Notes under the pieces: model-generated
Told to the model about the DNA's origin: nothing
The model's input: only the letters and a program-made list of their open reading frames with translations
Database searches by the model: none
Program-made: the position numbers and the translations under genes
Assembly: GCA_009746045.1 (NCBI GenBank)
Contig: RPFO01000213.1
Location: 1,306,078-1,370,077 of the forward strand
Direction: 5' to 3'
DNA length: 64,000 nucleotides
DNA from: Mesostigma viride
Taxonomy: Eukaryota > Streptophyta > Mesostigmatophyceae > Mesostigmatales > Mesostigmataceae
In this document: positions 26,690 through 60,862 of the stretch, in pieces
Numbering within the stretch: the stretch's first letter is position 1
Layout of the letters: each line of letters starts with the position of its first letter

Positions 26690-26758
26690 GGGCGTCCCCA
26701 ACATCTACTGCTCCAACCTAGGGCCATTGCTGGTACTTTTGACGTCATGAAAGCAGCG
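26690..26758 (+). repeat. left terminal inverted repeat of giant element
   Basis: The first 27 bases match the inverse of the right end exactly. A 10-11 bp insertion (CCTAGGGCCATTGC region) interrupts the match, after which GGTACTTTTGA is shared. Preceded by AGAT. Confidence 0.85.
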
Positions 26759-27251
26759 TTTTGGACTAGTGGAATATGATTTTACAGCATAAAAAGTCCA
26801 TTTTATCATGAATGAACATGGCCAACAACCCCAAGTGCCCCTAAATTTCTCAATATTTGTAGATAAATGCTACTTCTCATAAGCTAAACCTGCACAAATG
26901 CACAATTTGGGGCATGCATGTGAAAGTTTGAAGTACAAATTCGCAATAAGGTTTTACATTTTTCAATTAATAATGGTATCTCATTCTTCAATCAATCAAT
27001 TTGCAATCGTCCAAACAATTTATTCATTTCATACATGTCCGAATATGTTTAAAGAACACATGCAAGTGCTCAATCAGCGTGGATCCCCTTCGACGCGCCG
27101 CACCATATATACATTCGACACGTCAACCCTTCTACTAAACTGCCACTTCCAGAAGTCGCGGTCACTGATCGAACTACTATGTACATCTGCATTTCTCAAT
27201 GTTGCGGTGGGCAAACGTGCAAAACGCGACTTCGTGCAAAGTCCTTGCCCA
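26759..27251. other. left subterminal region, shared with the foldback
   Basis: AT-richer, non-coding. The stretch around TTTTATCATGAATGAACATG through AAGTGCCCCTAAATT to GGGCATGCATGTGAAAGT (26,770-27,000) is clearly similar to 45,360-45,590 inside the foldback and to its inverse at 53,130-53,335. The rest of it is the 3' flank of the cargo gene ending at 27,252. Confidence 0.7.
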
Positions 27252-30200
27252 TCATCGCTTGCCAGGTCGATGTGAAGGAATGTTGTCCCAGCTGGCGCCT
27301 TCCTTCAGGAGAGTAACATGTTCGCTGGCGAACTTCAGGGGGAAACGAAACCTTCTCTCGCTCTCATCACTCCGACCGAGTTCGTACCCTTCATCAAACC
27401 ATCTGATCACCACCTTCTCCTTCTCGCGGCCCAGGAGGGTGCCAAAGAGCAGAAAATCTTCCTTGTTGGGGTACTTGTGCTGCCAGTTTAGCCACATGTC
27501 CTCTACCCATTTCGAAGTCCAACCTCCGCGACCCAGTTTCGCGCCATCCATAAAGCGCATCCGGACGTCTGGCTCAACGTCCCTGATTGGGTCGACCGCT
27601 GTGCAAACCGCCCCCTTTTCCGCAACTGGCAGCCCCCCACCATCTCTGCCCTGACCACCACCCTTCTGCGGCTGTGAAGGTTCGTCGGCACCCTCCGTCT
27701 CCTGCCCCGCCCCTCGCCTGCCCCCTCCCCGACGTTTTGCCTTCTGCCCCTGCGCAGCCGCCGCCTCTGCCATCAACTCTTCGTACGTTTTTTCTGGCTG
27801 ACCGCACGGTAAGGGTGGTGCGTGGGGTGCGTTGGGTGGGAGGGAGGCCCCTCCCGCCCCCGGTTGTGCAACTGGTGCGCCGACCGCGGCCTGGCCAACA
27901 ACACGGCCGGCCTCTCCGGACACAGTCCCAGACGCGGATCCACGGGGAAACCGAACTGGAGTTTCTTCTTCGCCTTTCCCTGCACGTAAGCACATGCCAA
28001 TTAACATGAATACGGAAGGGTCGTGTGAGAAATCAATGAAGCCATGGACTGATGCAAAAAAACTTATGTAGAAATATATTAAGGTACTTATTAAACTCGT
28101 TTATTGAAAATGAAATTTACCGGCCGAATGTACCGTTGGAGCGTGGAAGGGCATCCTTGGTCGATCGAAGATATCCGTCAATGCGGTCAACGGTGCGGTC
28201 GATGTCCCTGGCGGCGCCTCAACATCGACCACCTCAGTCGGGCGCATCAATCCGGCAAACGCCGGCCCTCCATCTGAGACTGTCGGCGGACCCTCCACGT
28301 TACGAGCCTCAAATACCCTCTTCTGCAGTGGGGTGCTCGCAACAAAATCCGTGTCAGCCGACGGGACCGGATCGTCATCCTCATTCAGCAGTATCGTGTC
28401 CGGGCATTGCTCCATCCCCGTCGGGCGGGGGGGCAAAGTCATCACAACCGTCCTTCCTGACGACGGTACGGGATCGTCATCCATACCCAAAGAAACCGAG
28501 GCGAGGGCGGGGGTCCCCTCAACCGGGGGTCCCCATGAATCCTGACGAGGCCTCATTCCCATCTGTCGGACACGACCGCCTCCCGTAAATCGGGAACGCC
28601 CGCCGGCGCTACCAGTAACAGGCCGCGAGCCTGCTTCCTGCTGGCGATCCCCATCCACATCACAGATACGCCCGCCGGCGTTACCAGTAACAGGCTGCGA
28701 GCCTCCTTCCTGCTGGCGATCCCCCTCATCACAGATACGCCCGCCGGCGTTTCCAGTAACAGGCCGCGAGCCTCCTTCCTGCTGGCGATCCCCCTCCTCA
28801 TCACAGATACGCCCGCCGGCGTTTCCAGTAACAGGCCGCGAGCCTCCTTCCTGCTGGCGATCCCCCTCCTCATCACAGATACGCCCGCCGGCGTTTCCAA
28901 CGACAGGCCTCGAGTCTCCTTCACCAGCACGCTGGCGCTTACCTCCCCCCCTTTTGTCTTCATCCCCCCCATTGTCTCCTCCCGCGAGCCTCCAGCATCC
29001 CGACTGCGCTTTTTCCCTCCCCTTCCATCTCCTCCCCCGTCCCTCTCCTCCTGGCCATCCCCTTTCTCCTCCTCGCCATCCCCTTTCTCCCCCTCCGCCT
29101 CGTCCCCCTCCTCCCCGGGCGGGTGCCCATCAGCATGATCCTCCTCCTCGTCCTCCTCGTCCTCCTCGTCCTCCTCGTCCTCCTCGTCCTCCTCGTCCTC
29201 CTCATCCTCCTCCTTCTCATCCTCATCCTCATCCACCTCCCCCACTTCCTCCTCCCCCTCTTCCCCCTTCTCCGAATCATCACCCTCATCAGACGAAGAT
29301 CGTCGTCGTCGGCAAAGTAGGCGAGGTCTGTCCACCCAGTTTTACGAAGCCGATATTTGATAAGGCGGACCAGGCGCTTCCACCGGCGGATATGGGCGGT
29401 CTCCCCGAACACCAGCAGAACTCTGCAGGGTCCCCTAAAAAGGGCGTTGGTCATGTTGTCAACCACATCCCACACGACCGGGCTGAAATGCGAGGAGGGT
29501 TTGGGCATGTGGCTGTCCTCCGGAATGCAGTCTGGGTCCCACTTGCGCAGGTTCCTCCACTTCTCGTTCCTGTCAGCTGCCAGGTCCAGCAGAGCAAACG
29601 CACGGTCCTTCAGCGACCGAGGAATTTTGTCAGACCCCGTGTACAACTCGTCCACCACCTTCGTCACCACCAGATCCTTTCTTTTTTCGTCTTCCTTCCA
29701 TATCATTGTCCTGTATGCGATCCATTCGGATCCCATCCTCACCCCCTTCCAATCGCTGTAGCCTTCCAACCTGTCCCGCCACCCCTTCTTGGCCTTGGTA
29801 GTCCCCTCCTCCGCCGCCTCCTCGACCTCCTTCTCGACCTCCGCCGCCGCCTCCTTTGGCACACCCAGCAGATGTTTGGTCTTCACCCCCAAATCGTCAT
29901 ACAAATGACGGGGGTGGGAAGCGAGCAGCCCTCTCGGGAACTTCCAGTCCTTCTGGTCGACCACTTTCCTTTTAGCCGGCGGAAGGTCCCTCAGCGTGAG
30001 AATGATCGCCCTCGTGGCCGTGACGACCACCCGCCAAAAGTCTCTGGTCAGGCGGCAGTCGGCGATGAACTTGTCGAGGTCCGTGGCGAAGGTGCCCTTC
30101 AGCTTCACGCCAAACACGTGCTCCCTCACCAATACGGGGTTGAAGGTCCCGTCTAGTTGTTTGCAAGCGGCCATCAGGGGGGGTTCTCCAGGAACTTGAT

Positions 30201-33200
30201 GTGGGCGAATTGCACGGCCGCCTCTTTCAAATTCTTGGCGACTTCCATTATTTTTATCAGGTTGCTGGGAGGGGCCTCACAGGACATGATCGGCGCTTGG
30301 ATCAGGCTGTCGAAGTACTGGAAACTCGCAAGTTCCCGATGCGCGGTGAAAATGGACAGTTCGTGCGCCTTGTCTTTAGGGCGCGCGTCAAGGAAGTCTT
30401 GCCGAGCCGCGATATCCTGTGCGATCGCCGGCTTGCCGTCGACAACGGGCTTCAAAGGGTCCTCACACCAGAACAGCCAGCGCTGCATGAAGTTCTTCTG
30501 GTCCGGCCCCCACTTGTCGGTCTCTTCAGCCCCCCTGCCTTGTCGCCGGCGCCGTCCCCTTCGGCCTTGGCTTGCTCTCCTTTCTGCCAAAAGGGCTTCA
30601 CAATCGCCCAGATCTTGCCGTACAGAGGAGTTGGGAGAGACACGCCCTTCCCTCTCTTGACGGGTCCATATGCCTGGTAGGCCCGGTGCACATCCCCCAG
30701 CGCTGAGCCCCACGTTGCCTTGGCTTGGGCTGTGTCCTCCGCGTTCATGGCGTTCCCGAGCTGCCTGACAATGCCGATCATCTCGCCGACTCGTTCGGAA
30801 ACCTGCATCGCCGTATGGCAAAAACGCGCAGAGACACATCGACAGTCCTCCCAAATAAGCACAACTCAACTGAGAACAATAAAGCGACTCACAGAAACGC
30901 CGGCGGTCGCATCTTGACCAAAATATGGCATACTAAGGTGGAACATGAAAACCCCTTATAGAAACGCCGGCGGTCGCATCTTGACCGAACTAATGGCATA
31001 CTGAAATTAACACAAGAAAACCACTTATAGAAACGCCGGCGGTCGCAACCTGGCTTACCTTCTGTTCACGGATCTGCCACCAGGTCGGCAGGATGGTCTC
31101 ACCCTTGAGCATCTGCACGTCCACCCCCCCGAAATTCGTCCAATCAGTTGCCCACTCCTCCAGCTTCGCCGCGGCCACGGTCTTCGTGACCTCCTGCTCC
31201 TTCCCTCCCCGCGCAACGACCCTGAGCTTTTCCGCCTTCATGAAACCATTCAGCATTGCCTTGTACCACACAGATCTTTGGTCCACGGTCATATTTGGGG
31301 TGACCAGTTCGAATTTCACCGATTTGATGAGTGTGGTAAAGTGGTTCCCGTCCAGCACGAGAAAGCCGCAAATGGCTGGCGGCAACGGTGGCTTTCTCTC
31401 GAGTGGAGCCATCTCCCAGGCGGACTTGCACAAACTGTCCAAAAGCGCGGCCTTTCTCACGTCCACGGGCTTAAGATCGTCCAGAATATCGGCCGGTCCT
31501 GTCAGAACCGCGGTGGAAGCAGCTTCGGCCATCTCCTTGGCCGAGCTCGTTCGCAGGTAGATATCAATCTCTTTGTCAGTCATTGCGCGAGCGTAGCCAG
31601 CCTTCATTGTCCGTGCCCCCCCCATCTCCCCGAAGAGTTGCGCGAGCTGACGCTGGGTACCTTCCTTTTTCGTCCATTCATGAAAACTGTTGGGGCACCG
31701 GTCAGCCAAAAACTGGAACGAGTACCGCCACACAGGAATCACCAGCTTGTCGTGGCCGTAGTCGGACTCCGAGTTTGCAAAAATGGTGGCGTTCTGCTCG
31801 GCTCTAGACAGATGCAAGTCTCGTGCGAGGAGCTTCTGAGGCCCAACGAACAGGTTCCTTGTCCACACCCGATTTCGATGCACCAAGGCCTTGGACATGT
31901 CATCGAGGTCCCGAGGCTGAACGGCAAGCTGCTTCCGCAACCGTTTGCCCTTCGCGATCTCATCGTTCACATCCAGGATGTCATCATCATCCTGCGACAC
32001 CGGGGACTTCTCCCATTTCTCAAGCAGAGACACGGGAGCATCCGCAACCTCCACCTCCTTTCCTTTCCCCTTTCCCTTCAGCGCCTTCCCCTTGTGGGTC
32101 GCAAGTGCTTCGGAGAGTCCCTTCTGGAATTCGTCGACGGCAGCAGTCCACGTACTCGCTACTTCCACATCCGAGCTGCGCGCGTGCTGGTCGAGGCTGA
32201 TTGAGTACAGGATGGCCGCGTGGGTCGCCCTCTCGGCCTGCACGTACTGCAGTGATGCGAAACAATCAGGAAAGCATAACCAAAAGGAAAAAGTAAATGT
32301 CACACTTGAGAAACGCCGGCCGTCGCAACCTACATGAAACCTGAACCTCAACATCAAAGCCCCCCTCACAACAGAGGTATACTTACCTCGTTCCCTTAAC
32401 AATGATATGAAAAAATCAGGAAAGCATAACCGAAAGGAAGTGTCACACTTAAGAAACGCCGGCCGTCGCAACCTACATGAAACCTGGATCTCAAGAAGCC
32501 CCCTCACAACAGAGGTACACTTACCTCATTCCCCTTAACAATGATAGGAAAAAATCAGGAAAGCATAACCAAAAGGAATAAAGTAAATGTCACACTTGAG
32601 AAACGCCGGCCGTCGCAACCTACATGAAACGTGGACCTCAAGAACAAAGACCCCCTCACAACAGAGGTAGACTTACCTCATTCCCCTCAACCGCTGCTGC
32701 TTCAGCCGCTTTCTTCGACCCCTTCGCGTCTTCGGAGACTTGTCCCGGCGGGCATCGTGTTCCTTCAACATCTTGATCAGAGTCTTGGCGTCCGCCATCG
32801 TCACCGTCAACAGTTTACACTTCCTCTCCTTCGCTTTGCCCTCGAACAGGTTCTCCTGCATCCACTTTATCAAGGCCTTGGCGCTCGGGATCTCCTCAGG
32901 CTGTGTGGCGCCATCGGGCGCGCACGCATTCTTCACGATCAACTCAGCGACTTGATGGAGAGTCATCATCTGGTTCCGTACCTCAGGTGGGGCTGTTTCC
33001 GTTCTCACCTCGGCCACAACCCGCTTTGCCAACGTCCTCAGTTTATAAGCATCCGCTTGCTCCTTAAAGCGTGTCATTTTCGCAGTATCGCCGTCGCTTC
33101 CACCCACGCCCTCTGACACAGGCTCACCGACAGCGATAGCCCCCTCTCCCTGGAGATTTGCCCCACCCTGACGACCGGCTTCCTGCAAGAACATTATCAA

Positions 33201-34363
33201 CGGAAGATCAAATAATGTAAGAAAAGTGTAAAGAAACGCCGGCCGTCGTAACTCTGTCCATTGAGGACGAACCTAAACTTTCGATTACTAAGTCAACGGT
33301 AACTTACCCTTCCCCCCTCTGCAGTGGAACCACCGTAAGATCCACTTCCCCTCCTCTCACCGCCCTCCTGCTGCTCGAACGGACTTCCCTGTAAAAATAG
33401 CAAACGCGATTGTCCATTCACAAGAAAAAAATTACTACAAAAATAAACAAGGATATACGCACGCAAACCATTTCATTACAAGTAAACTGCGGAGAGGAAT
33501 CTGACGCACTCATGTACCTGGGTGCTTCCCGCCATTGAGCGGGCTTCTCTTGCACCCACATCCTCTTGCCGGCCCTGCGAACATTTCAACGGAAAGTAAA
33601 AATCCGCTTAGTTGTCGGAAATGACATGTCTGGCGAATATTGCAAAAAAATGCTTATTGTATTTCACGACATCAATTAAATGGGCAGAGACTTACGAAGA
33701 TCGGCCCGCCACCTTCCAAATTGCCCGGCGTCATTCGAAAACATCGAGGTCTTCCCCTCCATCGACCCCCTTCCCCCTTCCCCTTGGCCGCGGCGGGGGC
33801 ATATCGCCCGTCGCGACCGGCTTGGAAGTCGCGGGGGGATCCCTTGCGGTTGAGGGCACTGCGGCCGACTCGTGCACACTCTCCCCCCTCTTTTGGGCTA
33901 CTGCGGCAGGCGCGGCATGGGAGGGCGCGGCGGCTAGTGTCTCTGGCGCATTCTGAGCCAACCGACGCAACCTTAGCTCCTGCTGGAGCAGGGTTTCGAA
34001 ACGAGGCATGAATTGCGCTTGGAGGATAAGGCACCTTGGCGACTTCAGGTTTGTCATTAAGGATGTCTTGGTACAGCGCGAATTGCTGTTCACGAGTGCC
34101 ATTCGCGAGTCGCTCAAACCGCTCAATCTGAATCCGCTTAACCGGATCGTCCACCATCTCAAGACCACCGTGGTACTCATCCTTCCCAGTGACCGCGGCA
34201 AAGCTGACACCAGATTCCACCATTGGGGGCGGCGCCCTCCCTTGCACGCTTGTGAGGAGGCTGTTGTGAGGAGGCGCCTTGGGCCTGAACTGCTTGCCCT
34301 TCACGCTTCCCCCCTAGGGGGAGAGTCGCCGACCACCTGCGATGTAGGGCCGCCCTTTTCCAT
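27252..34363 (-). CDS. very large cargo gene, 7 exons, unknown function
   Basis: Minus-strand exons inferred from GT-AG borders and frame: 34363-33696, 33574-33518, 33388-33308, 33182-32677, 32246-31059, 30802-28121, 27979-27252; about 5.9 kb coding, ~1970 residues. The ATG at 34,363 follows an acceptor directly (TTGCAG/ATG). Junctions NE/YVQAERATH, EQK/VSERVGEM and the phase-1 join at 28,121/27,979 are in frame. Frames shift at about 34,315 (C6), 34,020, 32,715, 30,535 (G6), 30,180 (C7) and within 28.6-29.3 kb. Homopolymers account for some of these, so sequencing error is plausible. Visible features: KGKALKGKGKGKE basic stretch, an acidic EDEEDEED tract at 29.1-29.3 kb, a ~70-bp in-frame tandem repeat (28.59-28.91 kb) and a C-terminal globular-looking part (KYPNKEDFLLFGTLLGREKE). 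No known domain is recognised. Confidence 0.55.
28585..28915. repeat. ~70-bp coding tandem repeat containing the dyad
   Basis: Five copies of a unit encoding, on the minus strand, ETPAGVSVMRRGIASRKEAR with GLLL. Each carries ACGCCCGCCGGCGTTTCC on the plus strand, close to the dyad motif of the element's introns but in the orientation opposite to the gene. Confidence 0.75.
30894..31049 (-). repeat. three tandem dyad copies in a cargo-gene intron
   Basis: Within the intron 31,058-30,803, three ~67-bp units each hold TGCGACCGCCGGCGTTTCT on the minus (sense) strand at 31,049, 30,980 and 30,913. The spacers (ATAAG...TATGCCAT) are shared as well. Confidence 0.85.
32310..32619 (-). repeat. three tandem dyad copies in another intron
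   Basis: The intron 32,676-32,247 contains three ~145-bp near-identical units, each with GTTGCGACGGCCGGCGTTTC on the sense strand (positions 32,310-32,329, 32,453-32,472, 32,600-32,619). A single copy is in the next intron upstream (33,233-33,252). Confidence 0.85.
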
Positions 34364-34749
34364 CTGCAACAACAAAAACAAAAATTGGAAAAATCATACG
34401 AGTCAGCAGGAAGATGCGCCCCACGTCGCAACTCAATACAAAAAATGCATCATTATGTCAAGGTACAAACAACGTTATAATTCAGAAAGAACAGAGATTC
34501 ATAACAAGAGAACGACGCACTAAAAGATGCGACCGCCGTCGCAACTTTCGTCAATTCACTCACTATACAAACAACTCTATGTCCCTCATAAAGAATCATT
34601 TGGCAAGGAAATGCAAAAAATTTCGGTTACCAACTCCGTCGACCCATAAGTGGTTCGCGAATGGGAAATCGCTGCTGATTTTCGGTCGGGCCCTTCATGG
34701 TATTTTCGAAATCTCGAGGCAAGGTTGCGCGGAAGAGGGCCCTCCTTAA

Positions 34750-35317
34750 TCATGCGTGCGATCGGACTGGCCATGGAAAGGGATACCTGGTTCCTGGACT
34801 GCCTTGCAGGTCAACCATCTTGAAACTTCCCCTAAGAAGGAAATCAGACGTCAGACGGTTGAATATGCGTACGTCAAGATTTGACCAACCCATCATCCAT
34901 TCAACCACCTTCTCCGCGGCATCATGGAAGACCTGGCTCTCATCCGCCATTCCTCCAGACCCAAACAAACAATCGGCCGTGTTGTCGTCGTGCCTCCTAA
35001 GGCGAATGTTCACGTCCTCTTTGTCATCATCCATTTCCGACAGCCGAATTACAGCCCTTTTGGCTCCGTCCACTCCATCCTCAAGAAGGACGTCCATCTG
35101 CGCCCCTCCCACACAATTGTTGTCAACGTATTGTTGCAATGACGGGAAATCATGTCCTTTCCAAAGCTACGATGTGTTCCCCACACAGACCCATGTCGGT
35201 AATTGACAGCTTTTTACATTTCCTATCCCGGCACTTCTTTTCGGGATCCTTCTCAAAAATCCGGAAAACAGCGTCCTGATATGGACGTCCCCTTATGTCG
35301 ACCGTCAGACTGGACAT
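34750..35317 (-). CDS. cargo protein with CxxxxCKK zinc-type motif, frameshifted
   Basis: An acceptor (TTTCGCAG) directly precedes ATG at 35,317. The protein starts MSSLTVDIRGRPYQDAV and has KCRDRKCKKLS followed by GLCGEH, that is C-x4-C-KK...C-x2-H, like the neighbour at 35,598-36,462. It then hits a stop at about 35,150, but a shifted frame continues (HDFPSLQQYVDNNC, then DGAKRAVIRLSEMDDDKED) to a stop at 34,750. I read this as one protein with an apparent 1-base shift. A zinc-binding role is inferred from the Cys/His spacing. Function unknown. Confidence 0.5.
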
Positions 35318-35432
35318 CTGCGAAACCAGAACATACCGGCCGCGAGTAGTTTATATTATTAAAAAAAACTGGCATTTATTAAGTCATCTTCATCTATTTA
35401 TGCGAGCTAAAATTTGAAGAAAATGCAACAAA

Positions 35433-35592
35433 GAAACGCCCTGGGGCGCAACTTCCTCAACAACCACTTTCTACGTACAAACGAATGGCAATCACATCGA
35501 CTACGATTGTCACTACATACGAATGTCCAGACAATATAATGTGTATGTAGAGGGGGGGCATTCAACACCAGAGAAACGCCGGCGGGCGCAAC
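35433..35592 (-). repeat. two dyad copies in a cargo spacer
   Basis: GTTGCGCCCCAGGGCGTTTC (35,433-35,452) and GTTGCGCCCGCCGGCGTTTC (35,573-35,592), both on the minus strand, lie between the stop at 35,598 and the acceptor before 35,317. The CGCC/GGCG arms are constant while the central four bases differ. Confidence 0.85.
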
Positions 35593-35597
35593 TCATA

Positions 35598-36462
35598 TCA
35601 ATATAGACTGTCCCGCGACTCGTTCCACTCTCTGCAGGTTTTGCAACAACCGATCGAGCGAACTCTCGGAACCTCTTTCGCCGCCATTTCATCGACACGA
35701 GCGAACATCTCTTCTTTGGCGGCCACCAACTTTGCCTCCTTGTTGCCGGTGTCAGGATAGATTTCGGACCTCCTCGTCTTCATCGGGGCCACTCTCTCCA
35801 AATACTCTGCACACAGAGAATCCTGCTCCTCCTCCACAATCGCCTTCACGCCGGATACAATCGCTTTGGCTTTTGTTTCCACGCGAAAATCGAACTCTCG
35901 TTGAGTTATCAGCGGAATGTCGGCGAGTGCAAAACACATACGCCGATAAAGTTCGCTTACATCCGTGTCACGCGAGTCGGCAAAAGGTGTCGTCATCAAA
36001 AAGCATCTCAAGCTACTCCAACCATTTTCTTGGGCGCCGGCAACGTAGCCTCCCTTTGCCAAGTCCGCACCTGTCGCGGAGTCTTTGACTATCCAATCTT
36101 CAAGGAAGTACTCGTCTCCCCTGGTGAAATCAAAATTTACACCCAACCTCTCCGACAGTCATGTCCAGGCGAAGTCGCAGGGCCCCCCCCGCCAATCCAG
36201 GTCCGAGGGCGCCCGCCATTCCAAGTCCGCGACTGAGGGCATTTTCGATGTGACGAGAATGTTCTTCGTGCTTTCGGCAATACAAGTCAAATCCGAGAGC
36301 GGTTTTCTTGCAAGTGGACACATCACACTTGCGCGGCGCCCCTATTGAGCGAGCAACACTCTGAATGACAGTGGCAACCGCTTGGTGTTGTTGAAGTCGT
36401 TGCCAATCCTCCATCAGGAGGTGACTAGACGAATCGGACGAATCTTCCGTCGAACCGGACAT
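35598..36462 (-). CDS. cargo protein, paralogue with CxxxxCKK motif, frameshifted
   Basis: Starts at ATG 36,462 immediately after GTCGCAG: MSGSTEDSSDSSSHLLMEDW. The finger-like KCDVSTCKKTALGFDLYCRK-H matches the spacing in the protein at 34,750-35,317. Near 36,185 there is a G8 run; beyond it the first frame ends (VGEVGCKF) while another opens with FDFTRGDEYFLEDWIVKD and runs to 35,598, with ELYRRMCFALADIPLI and a Lys/Glu-rich tail. A homopolymer indel or a small intron would join them. Function unknown. Confidence 0.5.
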
Positions 36463-36573
36463 CTGCGACAAGTTACGATAACATACCGGCCCCGGAAAAT
36501 AAAATTCAAAAAACGTTTTGAAATTTTTTTATTGTACTTGTTTATTAATACGAAGGTTTAAATTTGGCGCAAA

Positions 36574-36593
36574 GAAACGCCCCAAGGCGCAAC
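36574..36593 (-). promoter_or_regulatory. single dyad copy in a cargo spacer
   Basis: GTTGCGCCTTGGGGCGTTTC on the minus strand, 34 bp after the stop of the 66-aa frame and about 110 bp before the acceptor at 36,463. Arms CGCC/GGCG, centre TTGG. Confidence 0.6.
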
Positions 36594-36626
36594 TTGTCGA
36601 ACAGCAATATGGCGATAAAACATTAT

Positions 36627-36827
36627 CTATTCAATGTGCGATTGATGTGCTGAAACCTTCCAGACTTTGACACTGTCCGGTATCACCGGACTCGGACGAG
36701 GAGTCGAGTCGGAAGCGAGCCAGTAATCCTCGACTATTTTTTTGATGTACAATGGAAGACTCCTTCCATTATGTCGAAGTGTGTCGGTCCTTTGCCTTTT
36801 GGCCAAACTCTCCTTAACCTCCACCAT
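36627..36827 (-). CDS. small cargo protein, 66 aa
   Basis: MVEVKESLAKRQRTDTLRHN to SAHQSHIE, stop at 36,627. The ATG lies 4 bases after an acceptor-like TACGCGCAG. A KRQR basic patch is present. It may be a stand-alone short protein or the last exon of a longer one. No family recognised. Confidence 0.45.
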   Translation of the reverse strand: MVEVKESLAKRQRTDTLRHNGRSLPLYIKKIVEDYWLASDSTPRPSPVIPDSVKVWKVSAHQSHIE

Positions 36828-36920
36828 TTCCTGCGCGTAGGAGGAAAATGATACGTTATAAACATTAATTATTAAAATAACATCATATAAACAAGTTATT
36901 ACTCTACATTTCAAGTTTTT

Positions 36921-37676
36921 CTAAGAGGCAGAGCCGTCGTGGAAGTTGAAGGAGAAGTCGACATCAGACCCCATAGTTTTATCCAGTATCGTCGTCACGT
37001 TAACCCCCCACTTCACCCCTGCCAGCACCTCCCTCGCTTGCCTCAGACGTTCGCATCTATCCTTATGCCTACTCCAGTCCGCACGCTGGCACTCCTCACT
37101 GCAATATCTGGCATCCCTACATCCTCTACACCACTTGATATGAGGTCCTGTTTCGCACCCACACCCCTCCTTGGAGCACTTTCGCGTACTACGCATGCGA
37201 TCCCCATCCCTCACGATCGGGTCAGAGAGCAAGAAAAAGTTCATGTTGAGGGGTACTGCCCCTACACATGCATCAGCCCTCACGCGCAGAGAATGCGTAA
37301 CATTCGGGTAAAATGCGCGCCCGTAGGTGCACCCAAGCTGAGCCCCTTCCTCTTCCCCCAACTCTATCTTTGGCCCCTTTGTAATGAACGACACCAAAAG
37401 GCGGAACTCCGTCCTTGGGTCTATGGGCACTCTTAGATCCATCTGTGGTCTGAAAAAACCCTCTTGAATACAGAAGTTCATATCAGCTAGCTGGGCGTAC
37501 ATAATTCTCTCCATTTGGCTGAACGAATCAAACGCCAATAAAACGGCCAAGTGGCGGCCTGTCCTCTCCTGCGCGACTCGAACTTCCTCGAATATGACAC
37601 GCGACAGAAAGCGAACTTGTTTGAAAACGTTTTGAAGGACGCTTCCGTAGACTTCATTCACGATCTCGGACTCCAT
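36921..37676 (-). CDS. MYND zinc-finger cargo protein, 251 aa
   Basis: The start ATG at 37,676 (MESEIVNEVYG) directly follows CTGAAAAAG; an in-frame Met eight codons upstream is also possible. About 170 residues of unrecognised sequence (FLLSDPIVRDGDRMRS at its end) are followed by a complete MYND finger, CSKEGCG, then WCRGCRDARYCSEECQRADW and HKDRC. MYND fingers bind short peptides in other proteins. The tail is rich in Asp and Phe (SDVDFSFNFHDGSAS). It sits in the minus-strand cargo train between two small proteins. Host-derived origin is possible since a MYND protein also lies at 17.7-21.3 kb, but only the finger is similar. Confidence 0.75.
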   Translation of the reverse strand: MESEIVNEVYGSVLQNVFKQVRFLSRVIFEEVRVAQERTGRHLAVLLAFDSFSQMERIMYAQLADMNFCIQEGFFRPQMDLRVPIDPRTEFRLLVSFITKGPKIELGEEEGAQLGCTYGRAFYPNVTHSLRVRADACVGAVPLNMNFFLLSDPIVRDGDRMRSTRKCSKEGCGCETGPHIKWCRGCRDARYCSEECQRADWSRHKDRCERLRQAREVLAGVKWGVNVTTILDKTMGSDVDFSFNFHDGSAS

Positions 37677-37740
37677 CTTTTTCAGGGAAAAAACGAACAA
37701 AAAAATTCATAAACATTAATTTATTATTTTATAATAACAA

Positions 37741-37983
37741 GTTACTATTCCTCGGAATAGTTTTTTTTTATCCATTCCACAAACGCGTTTGTCACAAACA
37801 CCTTCCATGCTTTCTCAAGAACTTGTCCCCCTGATGTTTTTGAGTATTCAAACTCGTCATCCGAAGAAACCAACTCCGGCACATCCTCCGAGAGGGTCTC
37901 TAAATTGTCATCGGCTTTCCTTTTGCGCTTGTGGTTTCCGAAGCATTTTTTTGTTCTTCTTCTGACATTTGTTCTGCAACCAT
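37741..37983 (-). CDS. small basic-acidic cargo protein, frameshifted at A7
   Basis: From ATG 37,983 one frame gives MVAEQMSEEEQK. After a run of seven A another frame gives HKRKRKADDNLETLSEDVPE, then SDDEFEYSKTSGGQVLEKAW and VEWIKKNYSEE, stop at 37,741. KRKRK looks like a nuclear localisation signal. About 80 residues if joined. The piece may be a terminal exon, since an acceptor-like GGTTGCAG precedes ACAAATG, and five dyad copies lie just upstream. Confidence 0.4.
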
Positions 37984-38094
37984 GGAGTCATTTCGAGGGG
38001 GGTGTGGTTTAACGGGTGCAGATTTAAAGTAATTTGTTTTAGGTGAACGATGGTAAAAACTTCATTAGATATTTTAAACGAACGAGAAGCAACA

Positions 38095-38496: not shown

Positions 38497-38559
38497 TATC
38501 ACACGGTCCAGGAAGAGTGACGTTGGCAGAATTATGGTGTTTGTAAAAGGGGGGGGGGT

Positions 38560-38848
<289 letters not shown>

Positions 38849-38885
38849 CGTCAGCTTCTTGTAAGATCATGTTTTGCATGATAGT

Positions 38886-48405: not shown

Positions 48406-51400
48406 TGGATGGCATTTATGTATTTAATGATGAGGATTCAGGCTCCCATGGTGTCATCATGGCTTGTCTACCTACATGGTTGGCATTTATGTAACCTGAA
48501 TCCTCTCATTAAAAAAATGAAGAGGATTCAGGCTCCATTGGTGTCATCATGGCTGGCCTACGTACATGGATGTCAAGGAATAGTAAATGATGAGGATTCA
48601 GGCTCCCATGGTGTCATCATGGCTTGTCTACGTACATGGTTGGCATTTATGTAATTAATGAGGAGGATTCAGGCTCCCATGGTGTCTCCATGGCTGGCCT
48701 ACGTACATGGATGGCATTTATGTATTTAATGATGAGGATTCAGGCTCCCATGGTGTCATCATGGCCCGTCTACGTACATGGATGGCATTTATGTAACCTG
48801 AATCCTCTCATTAAGAAAATGAAGAGGATTCAGGCTCCCATGGTGTCTCCATGGCCCGTCTACGTACATGAATGGCAAGTATGTAATTAATGATGAGGAT
48901 TCAGGCTCCCATGGTGTCATCATGGCCCGTCTACGTACATGGATGGCATTTATGTAATTAATGATGAGGATTCAGGCTCCCATGGTGTCATCATGGCCCG
49001 TCTACGTACATGGATGTCAAGGAATAGTAAATGATGAGGATTCAGGCTCCCATGGTGTCTCCATGGCCCGTCTACGTACATGAATGGCAAGTATGTAATT
49101 AATGATGAGGATTCAGGCTCCCATGGTGTCATCATGGCCCGTCTACGTACATGGATGGCATTTATGTAATTAATGATGAGGATTCAGGCTCCCATGGTGT
49201 CATCATGGCCCGTCTACGTACATGGATGTCAAGGAATAGTAAATGATGAGGATTCAGGCTCCCATGGTGTCTCCATGGCCCGTCTACGTACATGAATGGC
49301 AAGTATGTAATTAATGATGAGGATTCAGGCTCCCATGGTGTCATCATGGCCCGTCTACGTACATGGATGTCAAAGAAAAAAAAATGATGAGGATTCAGGC
49401 TCCCATGGTGTCATCATGGCTGGCCTACGTACATGGATGTCTCATAAAAAAAATGATGAGGATTCAGGCTCCCATGGTGTCATCATGGCCCGTCTACGTA
49501 CATGGTTGGCATTTTGTAATTAATGATGAGGATTCAGGCTCCCATGGTGTCATCATGGCTGGCCTACGTACATGGATGTTTCATAAAAAAAATGATGAGG
49601 ATTCAGGCTCCCATGGTGTCATCATGGCCCGTCTACGTACATGGTTGGCATTTATGTAATTAATGAAGAGGATTCAGGCTCCCATGGTGTCATCATGGCC
49701 CGTCTACGTACATGGATGTCAAAGAAAAAAAAATGATGAGGATTCAGGCTCCCATGGTGTCATCATGGCTGGCCTACGTACATGGATGTCTCATAAAAAA
49801 AATGATGAGGATTCAGGCTCCCATGGTGTCATCATGGCCCGTCTACGTACATGGTTGGCATTTTTGTAATTAATGATGAGGATTCAGGCTCCCATGGTGT
49901 CATCATGGCTGGCCTACGTACATGGATGTTTCATAAAAAAAATGATGAGGATTCAGGCTCCCATGGTGTCATCATGGCCCGTCTACGTACATGGTTGGCA
50001 TTTATGTAATTAATGAAGAGGATTCAGGCTCCCATGGTGTCATCATGGCCCGTCTACGTACATGGATGTCAAGGAATAGTAAATGATGAGGATTCAGGCT
50101 CCCATGGTGTCATCATGGCTTGTCTACGTACATGGTTGGCATTTATGTAATTAACGAGGAGGATTCAGGCTCCATTGGTGTCATCATGGCTGGCCTACGT
50201 ACATGGATGTCAAGGAATAGTAAATGATGAGGATTCAGGCTCCCATGGTGTCATCATGGCTTGTCTACGTACATGGTTGGCATTTATGTAATTAATGAGG
50301 AGGATTCAGGCTCCCATGGTGTCTCCATGGCTGGCCTACGTACATGGATGGCATTTATGTATTTAATGATGAGGATTCAGGCTCCCATGGTGTCATCATG
50401 GCTTGTCTACCTACATGGTTGGCATTTATGTAACCTGAATCCTCTCATTAAAAAAATGAAGAGGATTCAGGCTCCCATGGTGTCTCCATGGCTGGCCTAC
50501 GTACATGGATGTCAAGGAATAGTAAATGATGAGGATTCAGGCTCCCATGGTGTCATCATGGCCCGTGTACGTACATGGATGGCATGTATGTAATTAATGA
50601 GGAGGATTCAGGCTCCCATGGTGTCATCATGGCCTGTCTACGTACATGGATGTCAAAGAAAAAGAAATGATGAGGATTCAGGCTCCCATGGTGTCATCAT
50701 GGCTGGCCTACGTACATGGATGTCTCATAAAATAAATGATGAGGATTCAGGCTCCCATGGTGTCATCATGGCTTGTCTACCTACATTGTTGGCATGTATG
50801 TAATTAATGATGAGGATTCAGGCTCCCATGGTGTCATCATGGCCCGTCTACGTACATGGATGTCAAAGAAAAAAAAATGACGAGGATTCAGGCTCCCATG
50901 GTGTCATCATGGCCCGTGTACGTACATGGATGGCATTTATGTAATTAATGATGAGGATTCAGGCTCCCATGGTGTCATCATGGCTTGTCTACGTACATGA
51001 ATGGCATTTATGTAATTAATGAGGAGGATTCAGGCTCCCATGGTGTCTCATGGCTGGCCTACGTACATGGATGTCAAGGAATAGTAAATGATGAGGATTC
51101 AGGCTCCCATGGTGTCATCATGGCCCGTGTACGTACATGGATGGCATGTATGTAATTAATGATGAGGATTCAGGCTCCCATGGTGTCATCATGGCTGGCC
51201 TACGTACATGGATGTCATAAAATAAATGATGAGGATTCAGGCTCCCATGGTGTCATCATGGCTGTCTACGTACATGTTGGCATGTATGTAATTAATGATG
51301 AGGATTCAGGCTCCCATGGTGTCATCATGGCCCGTCTACGTACATGGATGTCAAAGAAAAAAAATGATGAGGATTCAGGCTCCCATGGTGTCATCATGGC

Positions 51401-53105
51401 CCGTGTACGTACATGGATGGCATTTATGTAATTAATGATGAGGATTCAGGCTCCCATGGTGTCATCATGGCTGTCTACGTACATGGATGGCATTTATGTA
51501 ATTAATGATGAGGATTCAGGCTCCCATGGTGTCATCATGGCTGGCCTACGTACATGGATGTCAAGTATAGTAAATAATGAGGATTCAGGCTCCCATGGTG
51601 TCATCATGGCCCGTCTACGTACATGGATGGCATTTATGTAGTTAATGATGAGGATTCAGGCTCCCATGGTGTCATCATGGCCCGTCTACGTACATGGATG
51701 TCAAGGAATAGTAAATGATGAGGATTCAGGCTCCCATGGTGTCATCATGGCCCGTGTACGTACATGGATGGCATGTATGTAATTAATGATGAGGATTCAG
51801 GCTCCCATGGTGTCATCATGGCTGTCTACGTACATGGATGGCATTTATGTAATTAATGATGAGGATTCAGGCTCCCATGGTGTCATCATGGCCCGTGTAC
51901 GTACATGGATGGCATTTTGTATATAATGATGAGGATTCAGGCTCCCATGGTGTCATCATGGCCCGTCTACGTACATGGATGGCATTTATGTAATTAATGA
52001 TGAGGATTCAGGCTCCCATGGTGTCATCATGGCTGTCTACGTACATGGTTGGCATTTATGTAATTAATGATGAGGATTCAGGCTCCCATGGTGTCATCAT
52101 GGCTGGCCTACGTACATGGATGTCAAGAATAGTAAATGATGAGGATTCAGGCTCCCATGGTGTCATCATGGCCCGTCTACGTACATGATGGCATTTATGT
52201 AATTAATGATGAGGATTCAGGCTCCCATGGTGTCATCATGGCCCGTCTACGTACATGGATGTCAAAGAAAAAAAAATGATGAGGATTCAGGCTCCCATGG
52301 TGTCATCATGGCCCGTCTACGTACATGGATGTCAAGGAATAGTAAATGATGAGGATTCAGGCTCCCATGGTGTCAGATGTCATGGCCTGTCTACGTACAT
52401 GGATGGCATGTATGTAATTAATGATGAGGATTCAGGCTCCATTGGTGTCATCATGGCTGGCCTACGTATGTACATGGATGTCAAAGAAAAAAAAATGATG
52501 AGGATTCAGGCTCCCATGGTGTCATCATGGCCCGTCTACGTACATGGATGTCAAGGAATAGTAAATGATGAGGATTCAGGCTCCCATGGTGTCATCATGG
52601 CCTGTCTACGTACATGGATGGCATGTATGTATTTAATGATGAGGATTCAGGCTCCCATGGTGTCATCATGGCTGGCCTACGTACATGGATGTCTCAGAAA
52701 AAAAATGATGAGGATTCAGGCTCCCATGGTGTCATCATGGCTGGCCTACGTACATGGATGTCAAAGAAAAAAAAATGATCAGGATTCAGGCTCCCGTGGT
52801 GTCATTATGGCCCGTCTACGTGTTGTTGGCATGTATGAAATTAATGATGAGGATTCAGGCTCCCACAGTGTCATCATGGCTGGCCTACGTACATGGTTGG
52901 CATTTATGTAATTAATGATGAGGATTCAGGCTCCCATGGTGTCATCATTGCCCGTGTATGTACATGGTTGGCATTTATGTAATTAATGATGAGGATTCAG
53001 GCTCCATTGGTGTCATCATGGCCCGTCTACGTACATGGGTGGCATTTATGTATTTAATGATGAGGATTCAGGCTCCCATGGGGTCATCATGGCTTGTCTA
53101 CGTAC
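48406..53105. repeat. ~71-bp tandem array, right foldback arm (inverted)
   Basis: Same unit as the left arm in reverse (ATGAGGATTCAGGCTCCCAT, GGTGTCATCATGG), about 65 copies, with 1-base indels more frequent in 51-52.4 kb. Confidence 0.9.
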
Positions 53106-53379
53106 ATGGAGTCATATTGATTCATGGAACAATGAGATACCATTCTTAATTGAAAATTGTTCTTGATACTTTCACATGCATGCCCGGAATCGTGAATTTG
53201 TGCGGGTTTCCATGATGACAATCCTCATTGAATTCTTGAGCACACAATATTGAGCAATTTAGGGGCACTTCGGCAATGTTGACCATTTTCATTCATGATA
53301 AAATTAACATTTAATGCAATAAATACATATTCCACTCATTTTAATAAACCATGCAAAAACTTTACAAGCACGCTCAAGC

Positions 53380-53870
53380 TAGGGGTGGGCTGGCATGCAC
53401 GCGTGGGTGTGGGGGTGGGCTGGCATGCATGCGTGGGTGTGGGGGGGGCTAGCCTGCATGCGTGGGTGTGTGGGGGGGCTGGCATGCATGCGTGGGTGTG
53501 TGTGGGGGCTAGCATGCATGCGTGGGTGTGGGGGGGGCTGGCATGCATGCGTGGGTGTGTATGGGGGCTGGCATGCATGCGTGGGTGTGTGTGGGGGGCT
53601 AGCATGCATGCGTGGGTGTGTGGGGGGGCTGTCATGCATGCGTGGGTGTGGGGGGGGCTGGCATGAATGCGTGGGTGTGGGGGGGGCTAGCATGCATGCG
53701 TGGGTGTGGGGGTGGGCTAGCATGCATGCGTGGGTGTGAGTGTGGGCTAGCATGCATGCGTGGGTGTGGGGGGGGCTAGCATGCATGCGTGGGTGTGGGG
53801 GGGCTAGCATGCATGCGTGGGTGTGGGGGTGGGCTAGCATGCATGCGTGGGTGTGGGGGGGGCTAGCACG
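53380..53870. repeat. ~30-bp GCATGCATGC array, right arm
   Basis: About 16 copies of GCATGCATGCGTGGGTGTG with a G-rich spacer of variable length. Self-complementary GCATGCATGC cores. Confidence 0.9.
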
Positions 53871-55063
53871 CCCCACCCCTCCATCGGCACAGCCAGCCTT
53901 GTGAGTCTACCCTCAACAACAAGGCTGGTAGGACGACACGCCTGAGCAGCATATGTCATGCCTATCTCAGGCTAATAATGTGTGATTTTGTGCCAACAAC
54001 CAAGTTGTTCCACCCAACAACACATTATAAACCCGCTTCCAAAATGCCCAACAAGCCGGACACGTGGAGGACCACACACGCAGTATATAAAGAGAAAATA
54101 AGCTGACTTTTTATCCAGCCAACCTGTGGCTAGCTGCTCTGGTTACCATGACAAATGCTAACATTTACTCAGTGGGAAAGGTGATCATGAAGAGACCATT
54201 GGAACAGCCTACCTGACGCATGTGCCACCAAAGCATTGTGTCCCGCAAAATGCACACTGCCTCCTTTCTAACAAGCACGAGCCGCTCTCTTTAGGAGACA
54301 GGTGCCAGCTCGTCAGTGTCTGGGGAAAATGATATTGCCGCTGCTTAGGAAGACCGCGTGAATTTCCTCGAACACAACTGTCTATAAAGCAAAAGAAATT
54401 TCAGAGAAGCATGGAAATAAAAGCATTACACCTTCCCGACAGGTTGCGGGCCACGCGCTGCAGAAAGCCAGCCACGTCACAGACGAACTAGCTAAAAGAC
54501 ACCCAGGAATCCAGCGATGCAGCGCCAGGAACCGCAACTTTCTGGCTGCATCTGGCCGGAAAAAAGGCAAAAAGCTTAGGCTCAACGAGCTAAGAAAGCA
54601 GGAAAACGCTAGCTTAAGACGTTTAACACAAGAACGTACCATAACGGGCATTTATTCGTGCCCAGGCGCACAAGAAAGTCCACCCTTTCATGGAGTGGTT
54701 GGGCAGTACGCATCGCGCAGGGCTAATGTTATCTTACCGCAAAATGACGGGAAAGGTAAAGATAGCAGCGGGAATTTTTACGGCTTTAGAAACATCATTA
54801 AACTAGCTTTCCTTACGACCATCAAAACTGGTAACAATCGACAATCAACCCGGCAGGCATCCATTATACTTTATTCATCCCGACAGAAATTCAGGCCGGA
54901 CCCCCCCTGCCGATGGCAAAGAAAAAAAGCCCGCGACATTATAGATCGCAACCATCCCGCCATAAATTAGAATCACTAACTAATTTTCTCCAACAATCGA
55001 GCATTTTTTCTGCTTTCCGCGTGCCAGATTTGTCACGTTTCGTCTAAAGGCAGTCACCGCCAT

Positions 55064-56166: not shown

Positions 56167-56717
56167 GTTGCGCCGGCCGTCGTTATCCATGATGAACTGA
56201 ATGGGTTTCGTGCAAATCAAGTTTTTTGTTTTGGTGTTCCAGTTGCGCCGGCCGGCGTTTCCAATGGTATCTTGCGCGCACTTGCAAAAGCTTGCACGCT
56301 TATCAACATTTTGTGTTGGTAAACATTTTATCACCTCTGGGATTTCCGCCTTCACTACCTGAGTTGCTTCTTTGTGGTTTTCAAATGCAACCGAGTTACG
56401 CCGGCCGTCGTTACTCATGACAAATTGTAGGGGTTTTGTGCAAATCACTTTTGTATGGTTTACATGCATCCAGTTGCGCCGGCCGGCGTTTCCAATGGTA
56501 TCTTGCAGTTGCGCAATCAGGCCCGATTACCAAAATTGTGTTTGTACATCTTTTTTACACCTGAAGGATTTCTGCCCGCATATCCTGAGTTGCTTCTTAA
56601 TGGTTTTTAATTGCGCCCGAGTTACGCCGGCCGTCGTTATTAATGACAAACTGTATGTGTTTCATAAAATCACTTTTGTATGGTTTACATGCATCCAGTT
56701 GCGCCGGCCGGCGTTAT
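56167..56717 (+). repeat. six-copy dyad array upstream of the transposase
   Basis: Three ~228-bp units, each with two dyads: GTTRCGCCGGCCGTCGTTAY (56,167; 56,395; 56,621) and GTTGCGCCGGCCGGCGTTTC (56,242; 56,473; the last, 56,698, ends TTATT). All read on the plus strand, the sense of the transposase gene. The array ends ~85 bp before an acceptor (CATCCTCAG, 56,800), so it is probably a leader intron or promoter region. Confidence 0.85.
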
Positions 56718-56861
56718 TAATGACGCTTGTCGTTCTTGTTTGATGCCCATCGTTTTCGTCGTGTCTTTAATGGTGATTATTTATCATTACTCATCCTCAG
56801 GGCTTTCGGTGCCGCGGGATTAAGAGGCGAAAAAAATCAGCTGCCGTCTGACCAAAGTCTG

Positions 56862-59800
56862 ATGGCGCAATCGGGGCGGGGGGCCGTTTCCGACGGTTCG
56901 CGTCCCTTGTCCAAGGACGACCGGGAGCCTGCACTTTGCGGTCCCTGGAGCGACAAGTACATCGAGAACAAGGGGTACAAAATTGCCAATGACATCTTTC
57001 CTATCATGGCGGAACACGTGAAAGCAAACAACCACAGGACGCCAGAGATGAGCGCGGAGGTTCTGTCTTGCGCAGCTTCAAGACTAAATGCCATGGTGGC
57101 GGAGAGCAACGGCATTAAGAAGAGGAAGAACTGTGACGACGGGCTTCCTGAAAGTTGGGCGGAATCTCTTCGGGATACCATCAAGAAGGCTTTTGGCGAC
57201 TTGGGAACATCTGAGAAGGATCGTGGGCTTAGGTGGGCCTTGTGTGGACTTGTTACGAAGGCAATGGAGGGCGTCCCGGACAGGATTGTGGAGCGCGCGT
57301 TCGGGATTGACAGGCGCTTTGTCGCAACTGTTCGGGGTCACAGGGATGGAATGGAAGAAGGGGAGGACGACCTTTTGCTGAGTGCGCCAGAGAGGAGAGG
57401 AGGAAAAACGAGCTTCCGACGGAAGTCATTGCCCTGATACAAGCGTGCTGGAGGGATGATAACTTGACGCGGGCGTCTCCGAACATGAAGGATGTTCATT
57501 GTGAATGGACAAGAAAGGATTACAAACATACACTAGCGTTTTCGGAGGGTGCGCGCTACTATACTGTCTCCAAGTCGAAGATTTACGAAGTGTTCATTTC
57601 CCGCCATCCGGAGTTGAAGCCACCGCGGCGGATGGACAGTAGGGAGGGGGGGGGGGGAGGGAGAGGAGGGTGTGAGGGGGGGAAATCAGGTGATTTTGGA
57701 GACGGAGGCAGGGATGTCAATGCTACGCACGAATCAGAAGAGCACAGTTCATGTGGGATACACTACTTTTTGCAAGCATATGCCCGCATGCGTCAAGGGG
57801 CGGTGGAAAATGCGGAACTTGTGCGCATGCCAGCACCACACTACCATGCAGTCCATGGTTGGGGGGTTGGCCAAATTTCGTGCAACTTTTCATGCCAGAT
57901 GCGAGTGCGGACCTGAATGCCACGCGTGCGATCATGGTAGCCAGCTCGACGTGGGGTCGTCCGTGCCCACATGTTCCATTTTCAAAGCCACTCACACGAC
58001 AGAGTGGGTGAACAAGTTTACTTGTGAGGTGGAGGGGATGAGGGAGGGGGGAGGTTCGAGGTCGTCTGTGGGGTCGTCGCGGCCGCAGGTTCAGCCTTTT
58101 CAGGGCGAACTTGAGGATCTGCCCATGCATGGGAGGGTGCTGGACGACGAGGAAGGGGTGCCCGATCATGACCTGGGCGAGGAGTTGGGGGTTTGCTCGA
58201 TCCGGCGTAAGGCTTGTGTGTTGGGCACTTGCCTGGCTCCCAAGTGTGGAATTCGGAACTTCATGTTATGCGAACGGGAGGAGGCTTCCAACCACCTGAT
58301 TTCATGGACCAGATACGAGATGCAGGATGTGCCGCCGGGTGCGGTTCTTGGGCCAGAGGTAATTTTTAGTGGAGTGGTTGCGCCCCAAGGCGTTTCTTTT
58401 GCAATGTTTCCTGAGGTTCTTGGGCCAGAGGTAATTTTTAGTGGAGTGGTTGCGCCCCAAGGCGTTTCTTTTTCAATTTTTCCTGAGGTCCTGTCTTTTT
58501 TCTTTCTACAGGTCATTGGTGGGTCGAAGTTGATGTCTTTTCTGTATGTGCACACTGCGCATATGCAGGACGACTGTGACGAGATCGCAAAGGCTGGTGG
58601 GCAGCGATTGACGCAAGTCGACGTCAAGTCCACACCAACGGAGCTAAAGGAGGCAATTGTGGACAAGTGGCCGGACTTCATCCAGCATTGCTTCAACGCG
58701 TGGTGGCAAGCGGACGCCTCCAAGGAATGTCTCTCAAGGATGCGGGTGGGGGACCTTGTATGCCACACAGATTACGCCGAGAACTACCAGTCTTACACCT
58801 ATCACAATCTCCAAGCACAGTATTGGCATCCAGTCACATTCGTCCTTATGCCCTGGATCGTGCGCTACTTGGATCCAGCGTCGGGAAAGGTCGTGAGAAG
58901 GGAGTTTCACTTCATCGGACAGGGCGGAATGAAAAGGGACGGGCGGGCCCTCCGTTTTGCTATCCTCAAAATCCTGGCGACACTACGGTCAGAAGGGGTA
59001 GAGGTGAAGCGCTTCATTGGGTGGTCGGACAATTGCTCCATGCAGTTCAAGTCAAGGAATGTGATCGCGGAAGTGGCCCGGCTGCTGACGGAGGATCCGC
59101 ACCTGGAGTCATTTGAGTGGAATTACTTTGGGGAGCAGCACGGAAAGGGGGAGGTGGATGGAGCTGGTGGGACTGTGAAGTGCATGTTGAGGAGGTGGCA
59201 CATCAGGGAAGAGAACCAGGACAAACAGACGGCCGCCCAGTTGGTGGAGAATCTGGCGTCGGGGGCGGTGGGCGGGACCACAACGACCAGGCGTAACTTC
59301 TTCGAGTTCCCCGAGGTAATTAAGTGTACAGTCCTCGTTCAGGGAATAGTTACGCCGGCCGTCGTTTCTAGGGCGTTCTTGGAGTCCTGGCGATCAGGAG
59401 TGCTTAATAAAACACAACTAGCTCGATGGTCTCGTAACTTCAACTTTCCCTTGTGCAAATCTTGTCTTCGACGCGCAGGTGCTTCCTTACAGCCCAGGGC
59501 GCGGCGAAATCAAAGGAGTGAAGAAGGCGCACTGGTGGCGCATGGACAAGTCGAATGTGACGCGCTTAATGCTGCGCCAGTATTCCTGCTATTGTGGCGG
59601 TGCGTGCGCCGAGGAAAGGTGGTGGGATTGTCGAAAGGAGTGGACCGACATGGACGGCTGGAATGTGGGAGGTGCTCGGATGAAGCTCCACAAACTGGGG
59701 GAGCCAGTGCAAAGGAACCCAAACGGACAAGGGGGGCACGCAGGGACGCGACTGAACAGACTACAGGCAGAGAGGACGATGATGGGAAGGAGACTGAAGC

Positions 59801-60210
59801 TGCGAGACATTTTTGCCGTCGAGTCCTACTCTGGTGATGAGTCCCACGATCCAGATCATCCATATTGGCTAGCGGAAGTCTTGCAGGAGCCTTATCAGGT
59901 GGCCGCTACTTTCGTGAGGCGAGTGGCCGACAGAAACGGCAAGGTCGATAGGGAGTTGTTCCGTAAGGGACAATGGGTGGTGGGGGTGCGCTACTGGGAC
60001 AGATTTCCGGGTATGGCGACGATGTTCAAAATGGACGCCGATGCGCAAGCTGAACAGCCAAACTTGGTCAATTGCTACCTGTGCATGGACGCGGGGTTCG
60101 AACACACCATTGTTGTCAACCCAGCTAACAATCGCCAGGCCATCTTGACCATTCCGACAGACGTCGAGAAACGGCTCACGAACTTGGCCAAGAAGAGACC
60201 TGTTGAGTAG
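56862..60210 (+). CDS. DDE-type transposase, Sola-like (inferred), 3 exons
   Basis: Exons 56862-58358, 58512-59315, 59479-60210, both introns GT-AG in phase 0; about 1010 residues, stop TAG. The first exon needs two compensating frame changes, near 57,390 and at a G-run near 57,645. A DNA-binding/zinc-like part has VGYTTFCKHMPACVKGRW, NLCACQHHTT and CECGPECHACDHG. The catalytic region shows CHTDYAENYQ (Asp at 58,770), GWSDNCSMQFKSRN (Asp at 59,028) and FGEQHGKGEVDGAGGTVK (Glu 59,151 or Asp 59,157), giving a D-86-D-41/43-E/D spacing typical of DDE/D transposases. The HGKG-VDG-GGTVK pattern is one I associate with large transposon families found in cnidarians and insects; together with the 4-bp duplication this suggests Sola. 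The C-terminal half contains a Cys cluster (CYCGGACAEE-WWDC). It is the only candidate enzyme for moving the element. Confidence 0.75.
58343..58486 (+). repeat. 72-bp duplication across exon end, donor and dyad
   Basis: Two copies (58,343 and 58,415) of GTTCTTGGGCCAGAG/GTAAT, each followed by GTTGCGCCCCAAGGCGTTTC. Both have the same donor (58,359 and 58,431). Use of the second would add 24 in-frame residues. Confidence 0.85.
59349..59368 (+). promoter_or_regulatory. dyad copy in transposase intron 2
   Basis: GTTACGCCGGCCGTCGTTTC, 33 bp after the donor of intron 59,316-59,478, sense orientation. Confidence 0.65.
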
Positions 60211-60835
60211 GCCAGCTCGCCCGGGCTTGGTTGGACGAGGTGGACAGCCTTGAGAGCACGTGCTTCGTTGTGAGCACTTGCCTTTCAGCCGTGATTTGCA
60301 AACGAGTTCCTTGTCCTGAATTGTAAAGCTCGATTCATGCTCTTTTAAGGAAGTGTATAATATTATCCAGATCATGTATATATTTAGATCTAGACCTGAG
60401 TTCAAATAACATTTCTTAGAGGGCTGAGATGCGCGAGGTCCAGCATACATGTATATATCCATGGAGACATGTTACAAACTCAAATGTTTCATTGTACGTA
60501 CCACTAGCTCGTCGACGGGGGTATCCCATGTAATGTATGATTTATGAATTAATTAATCGCTTAATTGTACAATTTAAATGGATCATGAACTTGTCAAGTG
60601 GCCTAATTTGGTTTATTTGGTTCATCATTTATTGATGTCAATCATTCTTAATTGAATCTCGAGCAATAGCAATCGTGAAGCAGATCCTAATCATGTGATT
60701 CGCATAATGAGAATAGGCAACAAGTGCTACTTTGAGGAATGCGGGGTTGGTCAGGTTATTATAGAGCTAGAGCTACAAACGGCACATATACTGCAAACTT
60801 TGCGCTCCAGGCATGGAATTTCAAAAGTACCAAAA
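60211..60835. other. right subterminal region
   Basis: AT-rich 3' flank of the transposase gene with TGTAA at about 60,320, a candidate poly(A) signal. No gene. Confidence 0.5.
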
Positions 60836-60862
60836 TTGGAGCAGTAGATGTTGGGGACGCCC
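60836..60862 (-). repeat. right terminal inverted repeat of giant element
   Basis: Inverse of 26,690-26,716, followed by AGAT (60,863-60,866). The inverted similarity also includes TCAAAAGTACC a little further in (60,821-60,831). Confidence 0.85.

Follow-up and report, generated by a model that had tools for sequence, protein, structure and literature searches.

A probable family of giant cut-and-paste DNA transposons in Mesostigma viride, exemplified by a 34-kb copy inserted in a Copia element

The 64,000-nucleotide stretch of Mesostigma viride DNA analysed here (contig RPFO01000213.1, positions 1,306,078 to 1,370,077 of the forward strand; ‘the window’) contains a 34-kb element, at window positions 26690–60862, inserted inside the reverse transcriptase (RT) box of a Copia element. 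We conclude, with a probability of about 0.9, that this element belongs to a family of giant cut-and-paste DNA transposons of autonomous type that has spread recently in M. viride. The family shows paired termini, 4-bp target-site duplications (TSDs), an empty target site, 275 right ends across the genome, a gene layout common to the copies read and a transposase gene that is open in other copies.

The two ends of the element are exact 27-bp terminal inverted repeats (TIRs), at 26690–26716 on the plus strand and 60836–60862 on the minus strand. Past an indel the likeness resumes with a brief GGTACTTTTGA match. The left end (L type) continues into CCTAGGGCC and the right end (R type) into TTTTGGTACTTTTGA, and no further terminus match with fewer than 10 mismatches occurs elsewhere in the window. 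AGAT stands directly outside each terminus (26686–26689 and 60863–60866) and is present as a single copy in the six empty sites read. Both the inverted termini and the AGAT duplication had been reported in a preliminary description of this DNA, made from the sequence alone. Inverted repeats at both ends, a TSD of fixed 4-bp length (in 11 of 15 end pairs, see below) and an empty site place the element among the Class II TIR transposons.

The same description proposed that the Copia halves meet in frame at the RT GDD box, that the host sequence can thereby serve as an independent ruler for the borders, and that empty sites should be sought; each of these points held. The query joined 100 bases of left flank, including one AGAT, to the 102 bases past the right AGAT (202 nucleotides in all). 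All 40 genomic places scored, from 746 first-look candidates, match the joined flanks at 96–98% (37 over exactly 202 bases, two over 204 and one over 197), and the junction is uninterrupted in all six loci read. One unbroken frame runs through the junction at locus L070, where it reads HGDDL, and matches RVT_2 (E 5.6e-18). Elsewhere the window's own Copia copy is broken by stop codons and changes of frame, to the left and to the right of the insertion; its short pieces alone gave no Pfam match, and one piece searched against PDB matched nothing.

The ends of the element recur throughout the genome. A search of the assembly with the terminus (up to three mismatches) returned 292 + 263 = 555 matches, as against 0 + 0 for the reversed control, and, like the window element, the family has ends of two types, L (CCTA...) and R (TTTT...). 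The 42-base R end accounts for 152 + 123 = 275 matches, and subtraction leaves about 280 left ends. The first 100 terminus places listed yield 15 adjacent pairs in convergent orientation, spaced 24–110 kb apart. In 11 of these the two 4-bp flanks are identical: AGAT (34.2 kb, the window element), CGAT (110 kb), TGGC (77.6 kb), AACA (62.6 kb and 23.8 kb), ATTC (28.7 kb), CTCA (25.6 kb), TACT (24.3 kb and 38.2 kb), TGCA (41.0 kb) and GAAT (35.5 kb). The inverted pairs with 4-bp duplications that had been suggested as a check on the element are thus found. Those lying 63–110 kb apart are at C1:2821411–2931542, 6191710–6269304 and 11580882–11643521, and may be larger variants or contain nested insertions. 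Flanks are unmatched in the remaining four pairs (C2:5535062, C156, C190 and C366), and one of four divergent neighbours used as a control has matching flanks (TGCA). The eight bases to the left of C190 are those of the 41-kb copy on C224; short contigs may therefore represent alternative haplotypes or misjoins, and the copy counts may be inflated.

The gene adjacent to the right end is predicted to encode a transposase whose DDE/D core is RNase H-like. Its putative exons (56862–57638, 57712–58358, 58512–59315 and 59479–60210, plus strand) end 0.65 kb from the right terminus, and the spacing between gene and end is constant across copies. Gene model P0001 resumes at 58566, within the third exon. 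The gene is frameshifted in exon 1 in the window copy and open in four of five other copies. The third exon (58512–59315) is the putative catalytic one and carries a probable RNase H-like fold, with HTDYAENY, WSDNCS and HGKGEVDG holding the candidate acidic residues; its structure model is of moderate quality, and both topology and structural neighbours agree with such a core. A 707-amino-acid model (predicted local distance difference test score 32.6) was too poor and was not used. Searching 5.8 billion proteins with the transposase returned solely gene models labelled Mesvir1, and no relatives outside Mesostigma appeared among proteins, viral contigs or prokaryote genomes in searches that require shared exact words and could pass over distant relatives. 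P0001 has no Pfam match at E≤1, and a sequence search of solved structures gave nothing convincing. Some animal proteins may carry similar motifs, DFAENY and HGKG..DG..GG.

In the mechanism that we envisage, the transposase would bind the 27-bp ends and excise the unit (24–41 kb in the copies read), which would then be joined to target DNA opened by cuts staggered by 4 bases, yielding the 4-bp duplication. As its own transposase gene is frameshifted, the window copy would have moved before the frameshift or been moved in trans by a copy whose gene is open.

We compared five further copies with the window element as assembled, end to end. The left 12 kb and the right 3.5–10 kb, which holds the transposase end, are in the same order in all five. 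Gaps of 4.4–8.8 kb of Ns lie mid-element in four. In the fifth, E41, the two arms of the central inverted repeat are both present, and a 71-bp tandem repeat has about 176 + 36 units, versus about 40 + 65 in the window. These observations bear on a composite origin, in which a smaller transposon would have caught host DNA unrelated to it, along with nested elements, between its ends; the bulk of the 34 kb would then be passenger DNA, a truly variable cargo. The MYND-finger open reading frame (ORF), purine tract and satellite arrays described below do appear heterogeneous, and matched pairs spanning 24 to 110 kb suggest that some copies may hold extra DNA. The conserved order of both outer parts in every copy compared, and the central array of E41, the sole other copy free of a large gap, nevertheless make a composite improbable. 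The preliminary description had envisaged a mobile unit carrying several genes as cargo together with nested repeats. What stands is a giant TIR transposon with many copies; capture of a passenger is unsupported, because the left gene block is present in all copies read, and nesting is likewise not shown. The supposed cargo and nested repeats are mostly fixed parts of the family, including the central palindrome of 71-bp repeats.

Each of the five other copies has 10–16 mismatches to the window, with a small number of indels, over the right 3.5–4.2 kb. Across the left half as far as about 35.7 kb, E41 and the window are almost the same, except in three repeat-rich 500-base segments. The other four copies differ from it by about 1–9% per segment up to 35.2 kb, with about 20% in one segment in three of them, and show almost no difference from 35.2 kb to about 38.7 kb. 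Two subfamilies may be combined, as a mosaic, in the window copy. The many indels in the E41 sequence at 36.2–38.7 kb give it an unpolished look.

The left gene block (27255–35139, minus strand) is transcribed outward, comprises many exons encoding multicopy proteins and recurs in all five other copies. A query from 31.0–32.2 kb retrieved 59 protein clusters, all from Mesvir1, that map to 27.3–36.0 kb on the minus strand, and a Pfam scan of nine gene models from the block gave nothing above cut-off. Values of pN/pS (nonsynonymous to synonymous change) are mostly 0.65–0.9, with 0.27 in one exon and 1.45 in one comparison; one exon lacks any synonymous change. Additional outward ORFs follow at 35598–37706 (minus strand), including one at 36921–37706 with a MYND zinc finger (PF01753, 2.5e-7). 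Next comes a purine-rich (AG)n tract (38561–41608, plus strand) that contains a 115-N assembly gap at 38886–39000.

A 20-bp motif, approximately GTTRCGMSGGCCGKCGTTTC, has some 30 occurrences at up to four mismatches, at 28593–39223 on the minus strand and 56167–59349 on the plus strand. At this threshold it is confined to the element, where it lies in the sense orientation of the two outward gene blocks, and its near-palindromic core yields antisense matches as well; at five mismatches it also matches outside the element, and shuffles gave 2–12. The sites lie mostly between exons and in tandemly repeated intron units, and their positions recur in other element copies. The motif may act in splicing, intron spreading or protein binding.

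The centre of the element is a large palindrome. Its left arm (44001–45590, plus strand) is followed by a 71-bp tandem array of about 40 units in one orientation (45591–48406, plus strand) and another of about 65 units in the opposite orientation (48516–53110, minus strand), and then by the right arm (53111–55058, minus strand). The arms are 94.7% identical between 44001–45318 and 53742–55058, and 95.3% between 45175–45600 and 53101–53517. We considered a nested foldback transposon and rejected it: there are no second ends, no flanking duplication was convincing by eye, and the structure recurs in E41. Because of this recurrence and the missing second ends we treat the palindrome, like the left genes, as a part that would belong to the family. 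An Rfam scan of the window found no match. Separately, about 240 bp beside the central array (53113–53336) are 72.7% alike, in inverted orientation, to the left subterminal region (26768–27003), which suggests a common origin for the core and an end of the element.

The large size, inverted ends and two outward gene blocks also recall integrated virus-like or self-replicating elements of the Polinton/Maverick or herpes-like Teratorn kind, and protein P0042 has one weak Herpes_US8A match (0.016, below cut-off). Such an origin is very unlikely given the 4-bp duplication and a scan, covering proteins and part of the ORFs, in which no polymerase, capsid or other viral domain passed the cut-off. 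Also very unlikely is a misjoining of repeats by the assembler, for although gaps occur in the purine tract and in the centre of copies and four of 15 pairs lack matched flanks, misjoins would not be expected to produce empty sites, 11 loci with matched 4-bp flanks and a constant gene-to-end spacing.

The genome holds a second giant family (loci L072–L095), with its own ends, GGCCGGGCCC..., and with terminus matches that outnumber those of the window family. Its terminus GGCCGGGCCCACTTCGAATGTTCC, at up to two mismatches, has 365 + 374 = 739 matches (control 0). The first 100 places listed include 27 adjacent convergent pairs, 23 of them spaced 20–37 kb and four 52–136 kb; six of the seven pairs read have 4-bp flanking duplications, the exception being a pair on C1. 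For the sibling transposase, 45 of 1621 candidates were scored, and the first exon was found at 97–100% in 45 rows; a single TGA, perhaps from an unspliced intron, is present in most rows of the last exon. P0002, the sibling protein, weakly matches DUF7869 in its catalytic stretch (PF25273; E 0.12, below the curated cut-off). With this second family and the 275 right ends of the first, the view in the preliminary description that giant elements are rare fails inside the M. viride genome.

Several repeats and an ORF lie in the window outside the element. A 36-bp tandem array (2094–3993) has 53 copies at 97%, with several frames open. An uninterrupted host ORF of 1189 amino acids (17697–21266, minus strand) ends, by eye, in a MYND-type finger. 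Inverted repeats at 12371–13696 and 22595–22875, 71–94% alike, probably belong to another repeat family.

Together, these data indicate that cut-and-paste-type elements of very large size can become widespread in one genome, that of an alga close to land-plant ancestry. Two families of 20–40 kb units, with hundreds of terminus matches and open transposase genes, are present near the base of the plant lineage; we estimate that the first alone occupies about 2% of the 440-Mb genome (275 × 30–40 kb). They offer a testable system for asking how units of more than 30 kb are moved by a transposase and whether this requires the extra genes and central palindrome.

Comparison with known systems leaves several partial likenesses. 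Sola elements make 4-bp TSDs and Zisupton elements 8-bp TSDs, EnSpm/CACTA elements have ends beginning CAC and TSDs of 2–3 bp, Polinton/Maverick elements encode a protein-primed DNA polymerase and an integrase and make 6-bp TSDs, and Starships are moved by a tyrosine recombinase, the product of the captain gene. The window family differs from EnSpm/CACTA in its ends, which begin GGGCG, and its 4-bp TSD; the latter also separates it from Polinton/Maverick, whose polymerase and integrase domains were absent from the proteins scanned. Like Starships, it is a giant mobile element with many genes, but it has paired TIRs and a predicted DDE-type core, and the Pfam-scanned proteins include no tyrosine-recombinase captain. 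Its 4-bp flank matches differ from the 8 bp of Zisupton, and P0001 has no Pfam match at E≤1, to a KDZ transposase domain or otherwise; DUF7869, matched weakly by P0002 and not by P0001, does not establish homology. The 4-bp TSD agrees with Sola1, and the family is possibly Sola1-like. A study of Ectocarpus reports giant TIR elements of the KDZ, EnSpm and Sola-1 types, among them the 21.5-kb Sola1-1_Ec32 and KDZ elements of up to 30.3 kb, together with a 31.7-kb KDZ element mobile in Chlamydomonas; size and inter-copy recombination are usually thought to limit such elements (PMC12477816). The window family resembles giant KDZ elements in size class, accessory genes and abundance in an alga, and Sola1-1_Ec32 in being a giant algal DNA transposon whose transposase and accessory gene are on opposite strands. 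Unlike Sola1-1_Ec32 it measures 24–41 kb in the copies read and has a central palindromic satellite, and neither the ParB-like nor the methyltransferase function of the Sola1-1_Ec32 accessory gene was found in the proteins scanned. Two Mesostigma genome papers, in the portions available, give transposable elements as broad classes only; no title or abstract opening listed in searches for Mesostigma transposons concerns such an element, and a literature search, mostly of titles and abstract beginnings, did not encounter the two families, the transposase or the palindromic satellite core. The window family, with its unplaced transposase and palindromic core, looks like a new variant of the known giant algal TIR transposons. 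More tentatively, and with the odds against it, the two Mesostigma families could form a new superfamily of giant DDE-type transposons with a 4-bp stagger, so far found only in this early streptophyte, to which the window family would add two outward multi-exon blocks with an intronic GTTRCG-N8-CGTTTC motif and a 71-bp satellite palindrome that may have a function for the element, for example in end pairing or as an origin.
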